Assembly: GCA_027020785.1 (NCBI GenBank)
Contig: JALUVI010000155.1
Location: 1 to 37,326, forward strand
DNA: 37,326 nt
Direction of reading: 5' to 3'
From: Planctomycetota bacterium
Lineage (GTDB): Bacteria > Planctomycetota > UBA1135
The position numbers were made by a program, and so were the translations under genes. How positions within the stretch are numbered: the stretch's first letter is position 1; each line of letters opens with the position of its first letter. Below are positions 26,487-37,326 of the stretch, piece after piece. Under the pieces are notes generated by a model, which was not told the DNA's origin, made no database searches, and was given only the letters and a program-made list of their open reading frames with translations.

Positions 26487-26748
26487 CGGAAACTGGCGGC
26501 GAAGATTGGGTCGCCCCGCGGGCGCCCCTTCCACCGGTGTGACCCAGGTCGAACGGGTTCGTCTTCCTCCTCGGAGCCGGTGGTTCCTCCGCGATGCGGG
26601 CAGCGCGGGCCCGACCGGTGGACCACCCGGCCCCGACCGAGCCCGGGAACGGCTCGGAGCGGGGGAGTCCTGTCCTTCGCCCCCTGCGGGACGGCGCGCC
26701 CGCCCCGGCTCCGACCCCGACCCACCCTGCGGGGCCAGTTTCCGACCT

Positions 26749-26777
26749 TTGCGGCACGCTCCCGAATCGGGCACACT
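26749..26777 (+). promoter_or_regulatory. Putative promoter TTGCGG-N17-CACACT, 8 nt upstream of the M28 peptidase GTG
   Basis: 17-nt spacer and -10-like CACACT just before GTG 26786; weak hexamer matches. Confidence 0.3.
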
Positions 26778-26785
26778 GCCCGGAA

Positions 26786-28435
26786 GTGCCCCGCGTCCCG
26801 TCCCCACGCATCCCGGCGCCGCGTCGCGCCCGCCTCGTCCCGCAGGTCGTCGCCCTGGCCCTCGCGGCGGCGGTCGCGTTCCCCGTCCCGGGGCAGGAGC
26901 CCGCGTCGGGGGGCACGACGGCGAGTGCGGCGGCGCCGGCCGACGTGCGCGAGCTCGCGGCGCGCATCACCGAGGACGGCGTCGGCGAGGACGTCCGCGC
27001 CCTGGCCGACCGCTCCATGCGCGGGCGCGGCACCCTCACGCCCGACTTCGAGCGCGCCGCAGCCTACGTCGAGGCGGAACTGGCCGCGCTCGGCCTGCAG
27101 CCCGCCGGCGACGACGGCTACCGCCTCCACTACCCGTTGCCCTGCGTCGTCCCCGGCGACGACGCCGCCTGCGTCTGGTTCCCGCCCGGCGCCGCCCCCG
27201 TGGCCCTGACCCCCGAGCGCGAGTTCGTCCCGGTGCCCGGCTCCACCGCGGCCTCCGTCGAGGGCGAGCCGGTCCTGGTCGGCTGGGCCATCGAGGCCAA
27301 GGACGAGCGTTGGGACGACGTGGACCGCCGCGACGTCCGCGACCGCATCGTCTTCGCCTTCACCCGCGAGCCCTGGGCCGACACGAAGAAGGGCAAGCGT
27401 TTCGACGGTCCGGACTCGACCCGCCACTCCGAACTCGTGCGCAAGGCCCGCGCCGTCGCCGACGCCGGCGGGTTGGCCCTGGTCCTGGTCCCCGACCCCG
27501 ACCTGTTCCCCGACGAGGACGAACTCGTCCCCGGCCTGTGCCCCTTCGTCGCCCTCGGCCGCATCGACGCCCGCGCCCTCGAGCAACGCATGGGCTTCCC
27601 CGACCTCCCCGTGCTCTGCGTGTCGCGGGCGGTCGTCTCACGCGTCTTCGACACCGACGTCACGGCCTGGATGCGCACGCGCGAGAAGCGCAAGCGCCCC
27701 GACGCCCTGTTCGCACCGAAGGGGACGCGCATCGGCGTCGCCGTGGACTGGAAGAAGGAGGACCGCGAGACCTACGACCTGGTGGCCCGCATCCCCGGCA
27801 CCGACGAATCCGGCGAGGCGGTGGTCGTCGGCGCCCACCTCGACCACGTCGGACTCGGCCTGGTCCAGGACTTCGGCCGCGCGCGACTGGACGTCTACCC
27901 CGGCGCGGACGACAACGCCAGCGGCGCGGCGGCGCTCTTGAACGTCGCCGCCGCCTTCGCCGGCGTCCGCCCCCGACGCGACCTCCTGTTCGTGTGGTTC
28001 AGCGGCGAGGAACTCGGCCTGCTCGGGTCGCGCGCCTACTGCGACGACCCGGCGCACCCGCTCGAGCGCACCGTCGCCATGCTCAACATGGACCAGATCG
28101 GGCGCACCCGCGACGAGGAGGCCAACGTCGGCGGCACCTGGGACCACCCCGAGTGGGAGCGGTTCGTGTCCGCCCAGGCCAAGCGCATCCGCTCGCGCCT
28201 GAAGCTCGACTTCGACGGCGGGCGCGACGTGTTCGCCCGCAGCGACCACTACTCGTTCCACCGCCGCGGCGTCCCGGCGCTGTTCTTCTTCGAGGGACGC
28301 ATCCAGGAGAACCCGGTCTACCACCGCCCCGGCGACGTGCCGGACACCCTCGACCCCGAGAAGACGACCCGTGTGGCGCGCATCGTCGCCGCCTGCGCCT
28401 GGGCGCTCGCCGTGGAGGGCGAGGATCTGCGATGA
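26786..28435 (+). CDS. M28-family metallopeptidase with PA-type insertion
   Basis: EAVVVGAHLDHVGLGLV...YPGADDNASGAAALLNVAAAF, LFVWFSGEELGLLGSRAYCDDP, MLNMDQIGR, SDHYSFHRRGVPALFFFEG; GTG start inferred at 26786. Confidence 0.9.
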   Translation: MPRVPSPRIPAPRRARLVPQVVALALAAAVAFPVPGQEPASGGTTASAAAPADVRELAARITEDGVGEDVRALADRSMRGRGTLTPDFERAAAYVEAELAALGLQPAGDDGYRLHYPLPCVVPGDDAACVWFPPGAAPVALTPEREFVPVPGSTAASVEGEPVLVGWAIEAKDERWDDVDRRDVRDRIVFAFTREPWADTKKGKRFDGPDSTRHSELVRKARAVADAGGLALVLVPDPDLFPDEDELVPGLCPFVALGRIDARALEQRMGFPDLPVLCVSRAVVSRVFDTDVTAWMRTREKRKRPDALFAPKGTRIGVAVDWKKEDRETYDLVARIPGTDESGEAVVVGAHLDHVGLGLVQDFGRARLDVYPGADDNASGAAALLNVAAAFAGVRPRRDLLFVWFSGEELGLLGSRAYCDDPAHPLERTVAMLNMDQIGRTRDEEANVGGTWDHPEWERFVSAQAKRIRSRLKLDFDGGRDVFARSDHYSFHRRGVPALFFFEGRIQENPVYHRPGDVPDTLDPEKTTRVARIVAACAWALAVEGEDLR

Positions 28436-29946
28436 CGGCGACGGCGGTGCTCGCCGCCGCCCTGCTGGCCCAGGCGGCCCCCGCCGCGGTCCGCCCGGCA
28501 GCGTCAACGGACTGGCGGGACGAGGTCTTCGCCCGCGTCGCCGAACTCGAGGCCGAAGGCGACATCCGCGTCGGGCTCCGCGTGGAGCTGCTGGACGGAA
28601 CGGTCCTGGTCGAGCACCGCGCCGCCAGCCCCTTCGTCCTCGCCTCCAACGTCAAGCTGTTCACCACCGCGGCGGCGCTCCTCGACCCCGGCCCCGACCA
28701 CCGCTGGTCCACCCGCGTGCACCGCGACGCCGCGGACGGAACCGTGTGGGTGGTCGGAGGCGGCGACCCCTCGCTGCGCCGCCTGCCCGACGGCGACGCC
28801 GGCGCCGCCTTCCTCGACGCCGCGGCCGCCTCCCTGCGCGCCGCCGGCGCCGCCGCGGCGCCACGCCTGGTGGTGGACGCCCGCGCCTTCCCGCCCCCGT
28901 ACCGCCCGCCGCTGTGGCCGGAGGACCAGTGGCAGGCCGAGTACGCCGCGCCGACCGCCGCCCTGGTGGTCGAGGGCGGCTGCCTGGAGCTCGCCGCCGA
29001 CGGCCGCGGCGGGGTGGTCGTCCGGCCCGAACTCGGCGACTCGGCCCCGGAGCTCCGCCGCACCGACCCCGACGCCGCCACCTTCGCCGCCTGGTGGACG
29101 CGCCCCGACCGCGTGCTGCGCCTGCGTGGCCGACCCCGGGGCGTCCTCCGACTCGCGGTCCACGACCCGGTGGACGTCGCCGCGCGCTGGCTCGCCCACG
29201 GCCTGCGCTCACGGGGGATCGAGGTCGGCGAGGTCGTCGTCGCCGCCGACGACGATCCACTCCCGCCGCCCGATTCCCTCCTCCTGGACCATCCCTCGGC
29301 CTGGACCCTCGCCGACGCCGTCCACGTCTGCGACAAGGACAGCGACAACTTCGTCGCCGAGACCCTGTTCCGCACCCTCGGTCTCCTCGACGCCGGAGTC
29401 GGCTCGCTCGAGGCGGGACGGGCCGCGGTCCGCGCCCGTCTGGAACGTCTCGGACTCGACCTCGCGACCTGGAACCAGGTGGACGGAAGCGGCCTCTCGC
29501 GACGCGCCGACCAGCCGGTGGACACCGGGTCCCCGGCGCTGCTCTGCGCCCTGCTCCGCGCGGTCTCCGATCCGAAACGCTTCCCGCCCGAGGCCGGCCG
29601 CGTCCTGTTCCGCGCCCTGCCCATCGGTGGGGTGGACGGCCGGCTCGCGACCCGCATGCGCGGCCCTCCCTTCCAACCCAACCGGGTCCACGCCAAGACC
29701 GGGTTCATCCACGGCGCCAGCTCCCTGTCGGGCTGGCTGCTCCTGCCCGACGGCCGTCCCGCGGTGTTCTCGATCGTCGTCAACTACCGCCGCGACGGAA
29801 CCCCGCGCACCAACAACGCCCGCTTCAAGGACTTCCGCGATGCGGTGCTGGCCGCCGTGCTCCGTGCCCACCCCGCCCCGGCGCCGACCGCCACGCCCAC
29901 GCCGGACGCGTCCGCACGGGACGCCGAGGAACCGTCGTCGCGATGA
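28432..29946 (+). CDS. dacB: D-alanyl-D-alanine carboxypeptidase/endopeptidase (PBP4, S13 family)
   Basis: SNVKLFTTAAALL (SxxK), KDSDNFVAETLFR (SxN), HAKTGFIHGASSLSGWL (KTG). Confidence 0.93.
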   Translation: MTATAVLAAALLAQAAPAAVRPAASTDWRDEVFARVAELEAEGDIRVGLRVELLDGTVLVEHRAASPFVLASNVKLFTTAAALLDPGPDHRWSTRVHRDAADGTVWVVGGGDPSLRRLPDGDAGAAFLDAAAASLRAAGAAAAPRLVVDARAFPPPYRPPLWPEDQWQAEYAAPTAALVVEGGCLELAADGRGGVVVRPELGDSAPELRRTDPDAATFAAWWTRPDRVLRLRGRPRGVLRLAVHDPVDVAARWLAHGLRSRGIEVGEVVVAADDDPLPPPDSLLLDHPSAWTLADAVHVCDKDSDNFVAETLFRTLGLLDAGVGSLEAGRAAVRARLERLGLDLATWNQVDGSGLSRRADQPVDTGSPALLCALLRAVSDPKRFPPEAGRVLFRALPIGGVDGRLATRMRGPPFQPNRVHAKTGFIHGASSLSGWLLLPDGRPAVFSIVVNYRRDGTPRTNNARFKDFRDAVLAAVLRAHPAPAPTATPTPDASARDAEEPSSR

Positions 29947-30779
29947 CCTCCGACACCGCCGCCGAACGCGACCTGGAGACCGCCCGCGCCCTGGCCGAGG
30001 AGGCGGGGCGGCTCCTCCTCGCGTGGCGGGAGCGGCTCGACGAGATGGAGGTGGGCAGCAAGTCGGCGGCGCGCGACCTCGTGACCGAGGCCGACCTCGC
30101 CAGCGAGCGCCTGCTGCTCCAGGGGCTGGAGCGCGCCTTCCCGCACGACGGCGTCCTCGCCGAGGAGAGCGGACGCCACGGCGGCGACGGGCCGGCGTGG
30201 TACGTGGACCCGCTCGACGGCACGGTCAACTTCGTCCACCGCCTGCCGATGTTCGCGGTCAGCCTGGCCCGGGTGGTGGACGGCGAACCCGAGCTCGCCG
30301 TGGTCCACCTGCCGCTCCTCGGCGAGACCTTCACCGCACGGCGCGGTGGCGGGGCTCGTCTCGGCCGCCGCCAGTTGCGGGTCAGCGCAGCCGACCGCCT
30401 CGCCGACGCCCTGCTCGCCACCGGCTTCCCGTACCGCCGCCACGTCCTCGTCCGCAACAACCTCGAGGAGTTCGTGCGCCTGTTCCTGCACCAGCGCGGC
30501 ATCCGCCGCATGGGCTCGGCGGCGTGCGACCTCGCCTACGTCGCCGCCGCCCGCCTGGACGCCTTCTGGGAGCTCCACCTCGCGCCCTGGGACGTCGCCG
30601 CCGGCGGGCTGCTCGTGCGCGAGGCCGGCGGCGTGGCGGACACCTTCCGACCGGGCGGCGACTGGCTCCACGGCCGCAACCTCCTCGCCGGCCCCGCGCC
30701 CCTGGTCGCCGAACTCCGCCGGCTCCTGCTGGCCGACCGGGGCCCCGACTACCCCGAACTCGGGGAACGCGAGGCGTGA
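29943..30779 (+). CDS. Inositol monophosphatase family protein
   Basis: ARDLVTEADLASERLLLQGL; AEESGRHGGDGPAWYVDPLDGTVNFVHRLPMFAVSLA; WELHLAPWDVAAGGLLVREAGG. Confidence 0.95.
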   Translation: MTSDTAAERDLETARALAEEAGRLLLAWRERLDEMEVGSKSAARDLVTEADLASERLLLQGLERAFPHDGVLAEESGRHGGDGPAWYVDPLDGTVNFVHRLPMFAVSLARVVDGEPELAVVHLPLLGETFTARRGGGARLGRRQLRVSAADRLADALLATGFPYRRHVLVRNNLEEFVRLFLHQRGIRRMGSAACDLAYVAAARLDAFWELHLAPWDVAAGGLLVREAGGVADTFRPGGDWLHGRNLLAGPAPLVAELRRLLLADRGPDYPELGEREA

Positions 30780-33700
30780 GCGCCGACCGCGCCGACCACC
30801 TGCGGATCCGCGGGGCGCGCGCCGGCAACCTCCGCGAGCTCGACCTGGAGTTGCCGCTCGGCGCCTGGACCGCGGTCCACGGACCGAGCGGCGCCGGCAA
30901 GAGCGCGCTCCTCTTCGGCGTGCTCGCCCCGGTGGCGCGGCGCCGCTTCCGCGTCCTGGCCGACCCCGCCGCGCTGCCGGAGAGCGAGCTCGGCTGGCTC
31001 GAGCGGGTGGCCGACGAGGTCGCCCACCTGCCGCCGGTGGTCGCCAGCGCCGGCGAAGTGCCCCGCGGCCGCCGCGGCGTCCGGCTCGGCGACGCCTGGC
31101 GCGCCTGGGAACTCCTCGACCGCACCTGGCGCGCCCACGGCGAGTGCCGCTGCCCCGCCTGCGGGCACGCGTGGCGGCCCTGGACGCCGCAGACCGTCGC
31201 CGCCGAACCGTGGTCGGAGGGCGCGGTCCTCCACGTCTTCCGTGTCGGCGGGGGCGAGGAGCGCGACGCGCTGCTCGCCGCCGGCTGGACCCGCTGGCGG
31301 CGGGCCGAAGCGTCGGCGCTGGAGCGCCTGGAGGAGGCGCCCGACGTCCTGCCGGACGACGCCCTCCTCCTGCTCGACCGGATGCGCTTCCGCGACGAGC
31401 GCCGCGAGCGCCTCGCCGAGGCGCTGGCCGAGGGACAGCGCTCGGGCCGCGCCCTGCGCCTCGAGTGCGACGGCGCGCCGCGCGTCCTCCCCGGCACGAC
31501 GCGTTGCCCCGCCTGCGCCGCGGCGCTGCCGCCGCCGCCCGCCCAACCCGGGCCCGAGGCCCCCGGGCGCGTCCTGGCGGGCCGCCCCTGGAACGCCTGG
31601 GCGGCGGCCCCGCTCCGCGACTGGCTCGACCTGCCGCTCGAGCGAGCCGACCCTGCGGCGCGGCGGCTCGACCTGCTCGAGCGCTGCGGCCTCGGCCACC
31701 TCGCGCCGAACCGCACCCTCGGCTCGCTGTCCCTCGGTGAAGCGCGCCGCGTCGAGCTGGTGTCGTGGTTGGCCGTGGTCCGCCGCGGACAGCTCCTGCT
31801 CCTGGACGAGCCCGGTATGGGCCTCCACGGCCACGAGCGTCTGCTCCTGGCCGAGCTGCTCCACGAGCTCGTCGCCCGCGGCAACACCGTGCTCACGGCC
31901 GACCCGGCGCGCGAGTTCCTGGAAGCCGCCCACGGCTGGCTCGCCCTCGGCCCCGGCGGCGGCGAGGCCGGCGGCCGCATCGTCGCCCACGGCGGCCCCG
32001 ACGAGCTGCCGCCCGAGCCGCTGCCGCCGGCGCGCGACGCGCCGGTCGTCGACCGGCCGACGCTGGTCTTCCGCGACCTCCGCGCGCGCCACCTCGCCAT
32101 CCCCGAACTCGCCCTGCCGCTCCGCTCGGTCGTCGCCGTCTGCGGCGTCTCGGGAAGCGGCAAGTCCACCCTGCTGGAGGACGAACTCGTGCCCCGCCTG
32201 CGCGACGGTCGGCCCGGCCGCGACTTCGTCGGCGCCCTCCCCGAGGGCGGCGTCGGCGTCCTGCTGGAGCGCAAGCTCGGACACGCCGCGGTGAGCACCG
32301 TGGCCACCCTGTCCGGGGCCTGGAGCGAGCTCCGCGCCCTCTTCGCCGAAGGCGAGGAGGCGCGGATGCGCGGCCTCGCCGCCGCCGACCTCGGCCTGCG
32401 GCCCGGCGCCGGGGCCTGCGAGGCCTGCCGCGGCCGCGGCGCGACCCCCGAGGACCTGCCGTGCCCGACCTGCGACGGGCTGGGGCTGCGCCCCGACCTC
32501 CTCGAGCTGCGCCGCCGCGGACGTAGCCTGCGCTGGTGGCTGACCCGGCCGCTGGAGGACCTCCGCGTCCACCTGCCGCCGCGCAGCCGCCTGGCCCGCA
32601 TCCTCGAGCGCCTGGTCGCGCTCGGCCTCGGCCCGCGCCGCCTCGGCGAGCGCGGCCGCCACCTCTCGCTCGGCGAGCGCGGCCGCATCGCCCTGGCGCG
32701 GGCGCTCGCCACCGCCCGCGCCGACCGCCCGCGGCTGTTCCTGCTCGACGAGCCCTGTCTCGGTCTGCCGCACTCCGAAGCGCGTCGGGTGGTGGACCTG
32801 CTCCACCGACTCGTCGCCGAGGAGGGGCACTCCTTCTGGGTGGTGGAGCACCACGAACTGTTCCTGCGCGAGGCCGATCACCTGATCGAGCTCGGCCCGG
32901 GCGCAGGCGAGGCGGGCGGTCGCCTGCTCCATGCCGGGCCCCCGGCCGCACTGGACGGGGCCGACACCCCGACCGCGCGCTGGTGGCGGGCGCGCTCGGC
33001 CCCGCCGCCGGCGCCGCCGCCGCGCTCGGCGCCGGAACCGCCGCGCAGCGCGGTGCTGACCGGCGGTCTGGACGCCTCCGACCGCCGCGCGCTGGAAGCC
33101 CTCCTGCGCCGCGAGCTGGTGTCCCGCTCGCCGCTCGAGGCCGACCTCGCCGACGTCGGCGCCCCGGCCGGGGGGCCGAACGAGACCGACGCTGCGCCCG
33201 CCCGAGCGCTCGAAGGTGGGGGGGCGGCCCCTGCCGCCGTGCCCTGCGCCTGGCCGGTGACGCCCGGCCCGCGCCGCAGCCTGGGGGCGGTTCTGGGACT
33301 GGACTCGCTCCGCGAGCCCCTGCGCCGCCGGGCGGCGCCGCGCTGCCCGCGCTGCGGCGGCGCCGGGCCGTGGCCCGGACTCGAGGAGGCCGCCGCGGCC
33401 CACCCTCCGGGGCCGCACCTGTTCGTGCTGGAGCCGCCCGCGGCCTTCGTCGCCCGCGAGGAGCACGGCCGCCTGCTCCTCGCCGCCGGGCTGCGGCGCA
33501 CCCTGCGCCCGAACGGCGACGGTTTCGTCGAGCGTCGCGCCGGGCGAGGCGAGACGCCGCAGCTGGTCGCCGGAGAGCGCATCGTCCTCGACCGCTTCGC
33601 CGCCGACGAGCCGGACGCGCCGGGGCGGCTGCGCGACCTGCTCCACGCCCTCGAGTCCTTCGGTGCGGCGGCGCTCGAGGCGCGGGCCCCCGAGCCGCCG

Positions 33701-34840
33701 TTCGCCCCGCGCTGGACCTTCCACCCGGGACGCTGCCGCGACTGCGGCGCCGAGGTGGCGGCGCGACCGCACCTCGGCCCGCTCGACCTCGAGCGGCTCG
33801 GAGACGCCCGCCTCGGCGCCGTGCTCACGACCGTGGCCCGCGAGGCGCCGGAGCTGGAGGGCCCGCGGAGGCTCGCCGCTCTGCTCGCCGACACCGCCCT
33901 GCTGGAGCGGCGGCTCGGCACGCCCCTGGGCCGGCTGACCGCGCCCGAGGCCCGTCTGGCGCGGCTGGCGGGACTGCTGGCCTTCCCCGTTCCCGGCGTC
34001 CTGCTCCTCGCCGACGCTCCGCTCGCCGGCCTGCCCGCCGGGGTCGCGCGGCGCCTCGGGACCGCCATGCTCGACGACGACGCCGGCGGCGCCTTCCTCT
34101 TCACCGATCCGGAGGGCTTCGTGCGCCCGCCGGACGCTGGAGCGACGCCCGAGGTGGAGGCCGAGCCGCGGCCGCGCCCGATGGCGCTCGGCTTCGACCC
34201 CGACGCCTTCGCCGAGCCGCCGCGCGCCGCGGAGGCGATGCGACTGCGTGAAGCGCTCGGGCTGGAAGAGGCGCTGCGCCGCCACTTCCTGCGCACCGAC
34301 GAGGCCCGCGTGCTGGGGCTCGGCCCCGACGACCTCGACCGGCGGCGCTCGCCGCTGCGCTGCGCGCGCTGCGGCGGCGCGGGCGAGGAGCCGCTGCACC
34401 CCGCGACCGGGATCGCCTGTCCGGCCTGCGGCGGGAGCGGCTTCGGGCCACGCACCGCCCGGCTCGAGGACCGCGGCCTGTCCTGGAACGCCCTGGGACG
34501 GCGCACCGTGGCCGAGCTCGCGGTCCACTTCCGCGACACCCCGCGGCTCCACGCCGTGCTCGCCGAGGCCGCAGCGCTGGGGCTCGGCCCGCTGGCGTTG
34601 GACGCGCCGCTCGGGCGCCTGCCGCTCGGGGTGCGCTCCCTGGCTCCGCTCGCGGCCCGCGCCGCGGCGCTCGGCGAGGGCGGGGCGCGGGCCGACGACG
34701 TCCTCCGGGTGGCGCTGGCCGCGGCCGGGCTGACGCCCTTCCAGGCGGCGGCGCTGGTCCCTAGAATGGCGGGTTTCCGCGGCCTCGTCGCGGACCTCGA
34801 GTGGTCCGAGACCCATCCGGCCCTGCTTCCGTCCCCTTGA
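30776..34840 (+). CDS. Tandem UvrA-like ABC ATPase, 1354 aa, four UvrA-type half-units (two with Walker A, two degenerate)
   Basis: GTG start overlapping upstream stop (GTGA). Walker A GPSGAGKSAL and GVSGSGKSTL; signatures LSLGEARRVEL and LSLGERGRIAL; Walker B LLLLDEPGMGLH and LFLLDEPCLGL; UvrA-type Zn pairs CEACRGRG...CPTCDGLG and CARCGGAG...CPACGGSG; GPGAGEAGGRLLHAGPP. Confidence 0.88.
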   Translation: MSADRADHLRIRGARAGNLRELDLELPLGAWTAVHGPSGAGKSALLFGVLAPVARRRFRVLADPAALPESELGWLERVADEVAHLPPVVASAGEVPRGRRGVRLGDAWRAWELLDRTWRAHGECRCPACGHAWRPWTPQTVAAEPWSEGAVLHVFRVGGGEERDALLAAGWTRWRRAEASALERLEEAPDVLPDDALLLLDRMRFRDERRERLAEALAEGQRSGRALRLECDGAPRVLPGTTRCPACAAALPPPPAQPGPEAPGRVLAGRPWNAWAAAPLRDWLDLPLERADPAARRLDLLERCGLGHLAPNRTLGSLSLGEARRVELVSWLAVVRRGQLLLLDEPGMGLHGHERLLLAELLHELVARGNTVLTADPAREFLEAAHGWLALGPGGGEAGGRIVAHGGPDELPPEPLPPARDAPVVDRPTLVFRDLRARHLAIPELALPLRSVVAVCGVSGSGKSTLLEDELVPRLRDGRPGRDFVGALPEGGVGVLLERKLGHAAVSTVATLSGAWSELRALFAEGEEARMRGLAAADLGLRPGAGACEACRGRGATPEDLPCPTCDGLGLRPDLLELRRRGRSLRWWLTRPLEDLRVHLPPRSRLARILERLVALGLGPRRLGERGRHLSLGERGRIALARALATARADRPRLFLLDEPCLGLPHSEARRVVDLLHRLVAEEGHSFWVVEHHELFLREADHLIELGPGAGEAGGRLLHAGPPAALDGADTPTARWWRARSAPPPAPPPRSAPEPPRSAVLTGGLDASDRRALEALLRRELVSRSPLEADLADVGAPAGGPNETDAAPARALEGGGAAPAAVPCAWPVTPGPRRSLGAVLGLDSLREPLRRRAAPRCPRCGGAGPWPGLEEAAAAHPPGPHLFVLEPPAAFVAREEHGRLLLAAGLRRTLRPNGDGFVERRAGRGETPQLVAGERIVLDRFAADEPDAPGRLRDLLHALESFGAAALEARAPEPPFAPRWTFHPGRCRDCGAEVAARPHLGPLDLERLGDARLGAVLTTVAREAPELEGPRRLAALLADTALLERRLGTPLGRLTAPEARLARLAGLLAFPVPGVLLLADAPLAGLPAGVARRLGTAMLDDDAGGAFLFTDPEGFVRPPDAGATPEVEAEPRPRPMALGFDPDAFAEPPRAAEAMRLREALGLEEALRRHFLRTDEARVLGLGPDDLDRRRSPLRCARCGGAGEEPLHPATGIACPACGGSGFGPRTARLEDRGLSWNALGRRTVAELAVHFRDTPRLHAVLAEAAALGLGPLALDAPLGRLPLGVRSLAPLAARAAALGEGGARADDVLRVALAAAGLTPFQAAALVPRMAGFRGLVADLEWSETHPALLPSP

Positions 34841-36549
34841 GCTCCGACGACCGCCCGCTGATCCTCCAGTCCGATCTCTCGATCGTCCTGGAGACCGCGC
34901 ATCCCGACTTCGAGGCGATGCGCGACGGGCTCCTGCCGTTCGCCGAGCTGGTCAAGTCGCCGGAGTACCTCCACACCTACCGCGTGACGCCGGTCTCGGT
35001 GTGGAACGCGGCCGCCACCGGGATGGACGCCGACGCGGTGCTCGGCTTCCTCGAGGCCCACGCCCGCTACGGCGTGCCCGAGGTCTTCGCGCGCGAGGTC
35101 CGCTCCTGGTTCCACCGCGCCGACCTGTTCACCCTCCGCGCCGGTGACGACGGCGATTTGGTGCTGGAGTGCGCCGAGCCCGAGGTGCTGCGCGAGCTCC
35201 TCCACGACGTCGGCCTCGCCGAGCTCCTCGGCGTGGATCCCGCCGGGCTGGAGGGCGACCGGGTGCGCGTCGCGGCCGGCCTGCGGGGGCGGCTCAAGCA
35301 CGCGCTGGTCGGGCTCGGCTACCCGGTGCGCGACGTCGCCGGCTACGTCGAGGGCGCGCCGCTCGAGATCCGGCTGCGCCGGACCTCGCAGCGCGACGGC
35401 GCGCCCTTCGAGCTGCGGCCGTACCAGCGCGAGGCGGTCGAGGCCTTCCACCGCGGCGGCTCGGCGCTCGGCGGCTCCGGCGTGGTGGTCCTGCCCTGCG
35501 GCGCCGGCAAGACCGTGGTCGCGCTGGCGGCGATGGCCGCGGTGGGGGCGCACACCCTGGTGCTGACGCCGAACACGGTGGCGTTGCGGCAGTGGCGCGA
35601 GGAACTGCTCGACAAGACCGAACTGTCGCCGGAGGACGTCGGCGAGTACTCCGGCGAGTCCAAGGAGATCCGGCCCGTCACCCTGACCACCTACCAGATC
35701 CTGACCTACCGCCGCAGCAAGGAGGAGGACTTCCTGCACTTCGAGCTGTTCACGCGGCAGGACTGGGGACTGGTGGTCTACGACGAGGTCCACCTGTTGC
35801 CGGCGCCGGTGTTCCGCGCCACCGCCGAGATCCAGGCGCGGCGGCGGCTCGGGCTGACCGCGACCCTGGTCCGCGAGGACGGCAAGGAGGACGAGGTCTT
35901 CTGCCTGGTCGGGCCGAAGCGCTACGACGCGCCGTGGAAGGACCTGGAGCGGCGCGGCTACATCGCGGCGGTGCGCTGCGTCGAGGTCCGGGTGCCGATG
36001 GACCCCGACCTGCGGGTGCGCTACCTGGCGGCGACCAAACGCGCGCGGCTGCGGCTGGCGGCCGAGAACCCGGCCAAGGAGGACGTCGCCGCGGCGCTGG
36101 TCGAGCGCCACGCCGGCGAGCGCATCCTGCTCATCGGGCAGTACCTGGACCAGCTCCGCGCGCTCGCCCACCGGCTCGGGGTGCCGATGGTCCACGGCAG
36201 GATGCCGAACGAGGAGCGCGAGGAACTGTACGCCGCGTTCCGCGAAGGCCAGGTGCCGACCCTGGTCGTCAGCAAGGTCGGCAACTTCGCCATCGACCTG
36301 CCCGACGCCAACGTCGCCATCCAGGTCAGCGGCACCTTCGGCTCGCGGCAGGAGGAGGCGCAGCGGCTCGGACGCATCCTGCGACCGAAGCGTGACGGCG
36401 GTGGCGCCACGTTCTACAGTCTGGTCACCGAAGGCACCGTGGACCAGGACCACGCCGACAACCGACAGCGCTTCCTGGCCGAACAAGGCTACCGCTACGA
36501 GATCGTCCCCGCTGCGGCCGTGCTCTCGGAATCCCCCTCTCCCCGCTGA
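34837..36549 (+). CDS. XPB/Rad25-type DNA repair helicase (SF2)
   Basis: RPLILQSDLSIVLETAHPDFEAMRDGLLPFAELVKSPEYLHTYRVTPVSVWNAAATG; VVLPCGAGKTVVAL; VVYDEVHLLPAPVFR; GLTATLVREDGKEDEVFCLVGPKRYD; QVSGTFGSRQEEAQRLGRILRPK. TTG start overlapping upstream stop (TTGA). Confidence 0.92.
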   Translation: MSSDDRPLILQSDLSIVLETAHPDFEAMRDGLLPFAELVKSPEYLHTYRVTPVSVWNAAATGMDADAVLGFLEAHARYGVPEVFAREVRSWFHRADLFTLRAGDDGDLVLECAEPEVLRELLHDVGLAELLGVDPAGLEGDRVRVAAGLRGRLKHALVGLGYPVRDVAGYVEGAPLEIRLRRTSQRDGAPFELRPYQREAVEAFHRGGSALGGSGVVVLPCGAGKTVVALAAMAAVGAHTLVLTPNTVALRQWREELLDKTELSPEDVGEYSGESKEIRPVTLTTYQILTYRRSKEEDFLHFELFTRQDWGLVVYDEVHLLPAPVFRATAEIQARRRLGLTATLVREDGKEDEVFCLVGPKRYDAPWKDLERRGYIAAVRCVEVRVPMDPDLRVRYLAATKRARLRLAAENPAKEDVAAALVERHAGERILLIGQYLDQLRALAHRLGVPMVHGRMPNEEREELYAAFREGQVPTLVVSKVGNFAIDLPDANVAIQVSGTFGSRQEEAQRLGRILRPKRDGGGATFYSLVTEGTVDQDHADNRQRFLAEQGYRYEIVPAAAVLSESPSPR

Positions 36550-37326
36550 TGGCCGGCGTCCCCCTCGCCCGCGCGCTCGCGCAGCGCTCCGACTCGGAAC
36601 TGCTGGACCTGCACGACCGCTGGGTCGGCGGCGCGCCGCCGCGGGGGCGCGCGGCGCTGCTGCAGGAGCTGCGCAACGCCCTCGCCGACCCGGCCCGGGT
36701 GCGCGGCGAGGTCGCGGCCCTGTCCGACGAGGAGCAGGCCGTGTTCGAGGCCCTGTGCGCCCGCATCGGACCGACCGAGACGGCGCGGTTGCGCGAGGAC
36801 CTCGGGCCGGCCGCGCGCCGCAACGGCGACCTGGTGTCGTTGCTCGCCGACCTCCTCGCTCGTGGTCTGGTCGCGCGGCTCGCCGCCCGCAGCCCCGGCG
36901 CCGAGCCGCGGTGGGCGGTGCCGCGCGAAGTCGCCGCTGCGTTGCGCGCTCCGCGCACGGCTCCGGAAGGCGGCCCGCCGGCGCTGTCGCTCCTGGACTG
37001 GCTCGAGCGCAGGGCCGGGCAGACCGGCGGCGCGGCGCGCAAGCTCTACCGCCTGGTCGCCGACGAAGGCGGCATCCGCGCCCGCGTCGCCGGGCTGGAG
37101 GCGCCGCATCGTGAAGCGGTGCGCCGTCTCGCCGTGGACCACGGCGGGCTGCTCGCCTGGGACCGCGTGGACGAGCTCGGGGCGGGGGACGCGGAGGCCT
37201 TGGTCGAGGCCCTGGCCGGCGCCAGCCTCGGCGCCGCCGGCGAGCTCGACCTCGAGGACTTCGGTCTGCGCCAGCGCGGCCGGGTCGTCGCCCTGTTCCA
37301 CGAGGTCGTCGTCGCCGTACTGCAGG
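36549..37326 (+). CDS. Helicase-associated, winged-helix-like protein (3' truncated by window edge; absent from the supplied ORF list)
   Basis: Open frame from ATG 36549 to the window end: MAGVPLARALAQRSDSELLDLHDRWVGGAPPRGRAALLQELRNALADPARVRGEVAALSDEEQAVFEALCARIGPTETARLREDLGPAARRNGDLVSLLADLLARGLVARL...; ATG overlaps XPB stop by 1 nt. Confidence 0.75.
   Translation, partial: MAGVPLARALAQRSDSELLDLHDRWVGGAPPRGRAALLQELRNALADPARVRGEVAALSDEEQAVFEALCARIGPTETARLREDLGPAARRNGDLVSLLADLLARGLVARLAARSPGAEPRWAVPREVAAALRAPRTAPEGGPPALSLLDWLERRAGQTGGAARKLYRLVADEGGIRARVAGLEAPHREAVRRLAVDHGGLLAWDRVDELGAGDAEALVEALAGASLGAAGELDLEDFGLRQRGRVVALFHEVVVAVLQ

Follow-up and report, generated by a model that had tools for sequence, protein, structure and literature searches.

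Examination of a 37,326-base stretch of planctomycete DNA (hereafter the window; contig JALUVI010000155.1, analysed whole, of the UBA1135 lineage assembly GCA_027020785.1, which is 2.47 Mb long and 90.75% complete) revealed three overlapping genes at its end. They code for a reduced tandem UvrA, an XPB helicase of the bacterial type and a protein with a predicted likeness to p52/Tfb2, a subunit of TFIIH (Table 1).

Table 1. Genes and protein features at the UvrA-XPB-partner locus of the window (NBD, nucleotide-binding domain; 16/16 refers to full-length copies of the reduced UvrA in the family)
Feature	Position	Strand	Basis and remarks
Reduced tandem UvrA, 1354 amino acids	30776..34840	+	GTG start; TIGR00630, 265 bits; only UvrA match of the genome
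Bacterial XPB helicase with N-terminal PF13625	34837..36549	+	NF045503, 809 bits; TTG start
p52/Tfb2-like XPB partner (predicted), N-terminal part	36549..37326	+	Domains and fold of orthologues; open at contig end
Walker A of NBD-I, GPSGAGKS, residues 36-43	30881..30904	+	Lys invariant 16/16
UvrB-binding-domain-like region, residues 124-240	31145..31495	+	R176, R206 and R216 kept 16/16, E222 not; model matches UvrA in UvrA-UvrB structures
Site of missing insertion domain and second zinc pair, residues ~252-296	31529..31663	+	Absent 16/16
Signature I (LSLGE) and Walker B I (LLLLDEP)	31727..31813	+	Invariant 16/16; H-switch Pro just downstream
Walker A of NBD-II, GVSGSGKS, residues 457-464	32144..32167	+	Motif reading and alignment
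Zn3 module, DNA-contacting hairpin 8 residues shorter	32417..32473	+	CEAC...CPTC, spacing 15 vs 23; 16/16
Signature II (LSLGE) and Walker B II (LFLLDEP)	32663..32755	+	Motif reading and alignment
Pseudo-half, remnant second UvrA unit	33263..34837	+	CxxC pairs; without Walker A and signature; purifying selection
Inositol monophosphatase family gene, upstream, same overlapping run	29949..30779	+	PF00459, 207 bits

Organization and distribution of the gene trio

The gene order UvrA/XPB/partner is non-random, since it is kept in every member of the bacterial family with sequence at this place and in several other planctomycete lineages. Among XPB loci with room upstream, labelled planctomycete or merely bacterium and carrying the third gene or a UvrA, UvrA lies directly upstream of xpb in all 28; no locus labelled with another phylum shows this arrangement. 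A preliminary description of this DNA, made from the letters alone, had named two findings that would speak against its reading, a UvrA-like gene not kept beside XPB in relatives and a third frame unlike helicase-associated winged-helix proteins; neither was borne out. Among 69 genomes sampled evenly from the phylum, XPB exceeds its cut-off in 28, and UvrA stands directly beside it in 10 (coordinates read by eye). XPB and the third gene adjoin each other more widely, including in Bacillota and rumen bacteria. A UvrA without insertion domain is also found beside XPB in families f2 and f7 and in G082 (f24), with a separate full UvrA elsewhere. The most divergent cassette copies of the family belong to one genus (g11; L176, L177 and L200), with a third gene of only about 598 amino acids. 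Two further genomes that also carry XPB and its partner have a UvrA away from XPB that is matched only outside the insertion-domain region (G093:C34 and G117:C32).

The UvrA-like stop and the XPB start share TTGA (34837-34840), and the XPB stop and the third start share TGATG. The three reading frames and both overlaps lie exactly where the preliminary description had placed them. It had also read the overlaps as translational coupling of a repair module, and here the specificity fails: the GTG start of the UvrA-like gene (30776) overlaps the stop of the upstream inositol monophosphatase gene, and in relatives the overlapping run extends upstream as far as an S13 peptidase gene. As the same overlaps link phosphatase and peptidase genes, they are by themselves unspecific, and codon overlap was rejected as a sign of a complex. 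The genes at 26594-30779, coding for an M28-type peptidase (by reading), an S13 peptidase and the inositol monophosphatase, overlap or lie close together and are found again across the family, which makes the trio the end of a longer operon. The contig ends at 37326; the third gene is therefore truncated by the assembly, with no sequence left to complete it.

A reduced UvrA as the only UvrA of the family

The UvrA-like protein scores 265 bits against TIGR00630, below the curated cut-off of 729.8 for canonical class I UvrA, and 203 bits against NF001885, the model for Chlamydia-type tandem UvrA, with its curated score of 3054. It is a remnant of a tandem UvrA, 1354 amino acids long as against open frames of about 1930-2300 amino acids at related planctomycete loci, where most UvrAs in the same place have four Walker A sites. 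As an example, the tandem UvrA beside XPB in Planctomycetes bacterium Pla86 (L057) shares position, gene order and duplicated architecture with the window gene; UvrAs of that type differ in having four Walker A sites and both units above the UvrA cut-off. The first half (residues 1-745) is predicted to have the UvrA fold, with a Foldseek E-value of 4.7e-43 to a UvrA-UvrB-DNA structure; the model covers residues 1-755 at a mean pLDDT of 70.6 and is untrustworthy at 59-123, 252-295 and 542-569.

Motifs were called after aligning E. coli UvrA with 16 full-length copies from the family. Like class I UvrA (TIGR00630; 3UWX, 9GY7), the reduced protein has the half-1 fold, two ATP-binding cassette (ABC) sites, the UvrB-contact arginines and zinc pairs 1 and 3; unlike it, it has an extra ATP-less half and a score far below the curated cut-off, and it has lost several elements. 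None of the 16 copies has an insertion domain or a second zinc pair; the Zn3 hairpin is eight residues shorter in all of them, both signatures read LSLGE instead of LSGGE throughout, and the H-switch His of NBD-I is replaced by Pro in each (16/16). Both ABC sites are intact in every copy, with an invariant Walker A Lys and an invariant Walker B Asp-Glu that includes the catalytic Glu. The residues mutated in E. coli (PMC3025350) comprise the DNA-binding R712, R722, R724 and R730 and the UvrB-contact R216 and E222; the family alignment retains R712, R724 and, apart from one Lys, R722, but not R730, and it has R216 in 16/16. By these alignments the region that binds UvrB in class I UvrA is present, with R176, R206 and R216 in all 16 copies and E222 lost. 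R176 and R206 (E. coli numbering), which are conserved 16/16, we take to be UvrB-interface residues.

The gene thus codes for a UvrA without damage-discrimination elements but with the UvrB-contact and ATPase parts. In the preliminary description it had been called a divergent lesion sensor within a hybrid repair module; the grouping of the genes was right, but the sensor role is not supported as put there, since the insertion domain and the Zn3 hairpin are what has been lost. An assignment to class II or antibiotic self-resistance UvrA was rejected for domain losses that run the opposite way: class II proteins (UvrA2, Ecm16) likewise miss an accessory domain, but theirs is the UvrB-binding domain and they have the insertion domain, the reverse of the reduced UvrA. 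In four other genomes, tandem UvrAs of ~1580-1670 amino acids (G063:C9, G058:C15, G003:C27 and G025:C303), with matches at 2-115 and about 264-902, have both units without the UvrB-binding region and are duplicated class II-like UvrAs.

The second half keeps CxxC pairs, and neither Walker A nor signature was found in it. Both halves are under purifying selection, because the ratio of nonsynonymous to synonymous change (dN/dS) is ~0.04 between two genomes of one genus (0.03 for half 1 and 0.06 for half 2); this value rests on one close pair, the other pairs showing saturated dS or base-composition bias. A pseudogene was rejected from this ratio and from the invariant motifs of the 16 copies. 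In one genome (G036, L171) the UvrA-like gene falls into two frames of 366 and 1077 amino acids, which may reflect faulty assembly or decay of the copy. In a tree of UvrA units the family copies form one clade on a branch of 2.5 changes per site, and XPB-adjacent copies without insertion domain from elsewhere fall next to it; because long branches meet there, a single origin of the insertion-domain loss is not decidable from the tree.

A full UvrA above the curated cut-off is found in none of 26 family genomes from 16 genera (best match 241 bits vs 729.8), and a whole-genome search of the window's own genome gave no second UvrA. TIGR00630 applied to 69 genomes of the phylum recovers a full UvrA in 64 of them. 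Loss through incomplete assembly was rejected, the 26 genomes being 73-91% complete. In nearly every family genome the main UvrA match is the reduced gene beside XPB, though fragmentary in those assemblies that are the most broken. Three other planctomycetes of the phylum sample (G092, G111 and G119) have no UvrA match at E 1e-100, through assembly gaps or real loss.

Intact UvrB and UvrC are present in all 25 family genomes searched; in the window's genome their genes adjoin each other, and Mfd is over its cut-off. The parts of UvrB that touch UvrA are domains 2 and 1b (PMC7616783). Identity to E. coli UvrB is lower in the family than in the order for domain 2 (35 vs 44%) and domain 1b (54 vs 61%), with no such shift in domains 1a and 3; within the family, domain 2 is 64% identical. 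The pattern looks like co-adaptation with UvrA, in a correlative sense. Domain 2 of the family UvrBs (L197, L198, L204-L215) carries the family-wide changes TQHxRAE and VEVWPI beside a conserved FRxRG motif.

XPB and its putative p52-like partner

The second gene is ordinary and intact and codes for a true bacterial XPB helicase: against NF045503 (DNA repair helicase XPB) its full length scores 809 bits for a cut-off of 610, and it has PF13625 at 8-131 and ERCC3_RAD25_C. This agrees with the earlier naming of the gene, as does the case of the third gene, which had been put forward as a winged-helix partner of XPB. The 259-codon piece of the latter gives nothing convincing in Pfam. Its orthologues at the same place, mostly 598-670 amino acids long within the family and reaching about 745 elsewhere, carry PF13625 at the C-terminus in all 19 full-length members of the alignment.

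Against the PDB, the profile of the third-gene family matches the human XPB N-terminal domain at E 2.6e-6 and yeast TFB2 at E 0.012; Pfam PF03849 (p52/Tfb2) matches 2 of 20 members, at best with E 0.014, below cut-off. Homology to p52 is unproven by sequence alone, and most of the weight was carried by a fold search, in which an AlphaFold2 model of one orthologue (L010:1599-3620, pLDDT 88.8) was compared with the PDB by Foldseek. TFIIH p52/Tfb2 takes the first 16 places, with E-values down to 1.6e-8 over some 500-510 aligned columns; XPB comes next, and the first unrelated match stands at 8e-3. TM-scores to p52/Tfb2 are low (0.2-0.3), so that the same domain arrangement is not demonstrated, and the protein is for this reason called p52-like rather than p52. 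Low TM-scores can arise with flexible multi-domain chains. In p52 the winged helices come first, and the C-terminal clutch domain shares the fold of the XPB N-terminal domain and pairs with it (PMC6422496); the domain order of the third protein is the same.

The pair thus resembles XPB-p52 (Ssl2-Tfb2) of TFIIH in combining an XPB that has an N-terminal domain with a winged-helix protein that ends in a homologous clutch domain. It differs in being bacterial and in lying beside UvrA; p8, p34, p44, p62 and XPD were not seen, no test having been aimed at them. Archaeal XPB-Bax1, for which a part in excision repair has been proposed, likewise combines XPB with a partner encoded alongside it, but Bax1 is a nuclease that binds the XPB thumb and HD2, whereas a Pfam scan of the third-gene orthologues found no nuclease family. 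Mycobacterial XPB presumably adjoins a PF13625-type gene as well; we know of no case in which that pair is joined to uvrA, and mycobacteria keep a canonical UvrA.

A candidate front end for excision repair

Since the only UvrA of the family is the form without insertion domain, the family would need another lesion finder, and the XPB-p52-type DNA-opening pair fixed beside it is therefore proposed for locating or opening the lesion. We give about even chances to the view that the cassette is a variant front end of nucleotide excision repair, in which a damage-blind UvrA loads UvrB while XPB-p52 locates or opens the lesion. The broader proposition, that a whole bacterial family has moved lesion finding from UvrA to a TFIIH-like XPB-p52 and left UvrA as a damage-blind loader of UvrB, is possible but more tentative. 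XPB and the third protein would pair as in TFIIH, the latter contributing p52-type winged helices and a clutch domain facing the XPB N-terminal domain. This pair, and Mfd at a stalled polymerase, would mark or open the lesion. The reduced UvrA, keeping ATP binding, most DNA-binding arginines and UvrB contact without the parts that distinguish damaged from normal DNA, would act there as a matchmaker and load UvrB, and UvrB-UvrC would verify and cut as usual. The observations behind it are the genes and their order, how these are conserved, which domains were lost, the p52 match of the predicted fold, the lack of a second UvrA and the presence of UvrB, UvrC and Mfd. For this scheme we infer contact among the three proteins, a hand-off of the lesion, the direction in which help is given and repair that still runs through UvrBC.

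Deletion of residues 290-400, the insertion domain, from E. coli UvrA leads to poor damage discrimination and a bias to Mfd-directed repair (PMC3025350), and Ecm16 without its insertion domain does not bind DNA (PMC10192343). Several observations weigh against a lesion-finding role of XPB-p52 in front of UvrA. UvrA of B. stearothermophilus without the insertion domain had no apparent in-vitro defect on a short oligonucleotide (reported in PMC3025350). UvrA copies without this domain seem to exist away from XPB (G093, G117). XPB and its partner occur without a neighbouring UvrA in other planctomycetes and phyla, and XPB-p52 thus has a UvrA-independent role. The operon also carries cell-envelope genes. 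Finally, with the UvrB-interface residue E222 and the H-switch His of NBD-I lost, the loading of UvrB may itself be altered.

One of the two main rival readings is that the reduced UvrA has left excision repair altogether and now serves, as a structural or ATPase subunit, in an XPB-p52 complex that does something else, such as replication or transcription, UvrBC being UvrA-free or loaded by a different protein. The very long branch, the altered signature and H-switch and the retention of an ATP-less second half under selection would fit such a change of task, which we nevertheless hold to be unlikely: the UvrB-interface arginines are invariant, and the UvrA-contact domains of UvrB carry fixed family-specific changes yet are conserved within the family, as in co-evolution. 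The other main rival, a UvrA retained solely for transcription-coupled repair, with Mfd delivering UvrA and UvrB to the stalled polymerase and XPB-p52 separate and nearby by ancestry, seems quite unlikely, even though Mfd is present in the window's genome, the E. coli deletion protein retains Mfd-directed better than global repair (PMC3025350) and the adjacency of XPB and UvrA predates the UvrA losses. It does not account for a uvrA that stays beside xpb-p52 in all genomes of the family when canonical UvrA was lost, or for the loss of the domain from the XPB-adjacent copies of f2, f7 and G082, the separate copies examined having kept it.

It is improbable, in our judgement, that the adjacency is merely historical and the three proteins are linked by nothing but co-expression in a long housekeeping operon. 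The four-base overlaps that tie the cassette to the phosphatase and peptidase genes would be expected there. Against it, the trio is constant while upstream genes vary between lineages, XPB and its partner adjoin each other in unrelated phyla too, and the UvrA losses became fixed at the XPB-adjacent position.

The kinds of components (UvrA, XPB and a PF13625 protein) are already known. In the open-access literature we found no description of their joint operon, of the p52-like fold of the partner or of a family-wide replacement of canonical UvrA, although absence there is no proof of novelty. According to work on mycobacterial XPB from 2012, bacteria had so far yielded no TFIIH subunit apart from XPB (PMC3353954). 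A review of 2026 describes the function of XPB in bacteria and archaea as elusive and states that archaea have no TFIIH-like assembly (PMC13024598). A p52-like partner together with a sole UvrA shorn of its damage-sensing parts, both beside XPB, offers a concrete pathway for probing the part played by bacterial XPB, and a natural experiment that sets the elements of UvrA for lesion detection apart from those for UvrB loading. If the proposed division of labour is true, the cassette of this planctomycete family would be a natural bridge between the bacterial and eukaryotic ways to start nucleotide excision repair.

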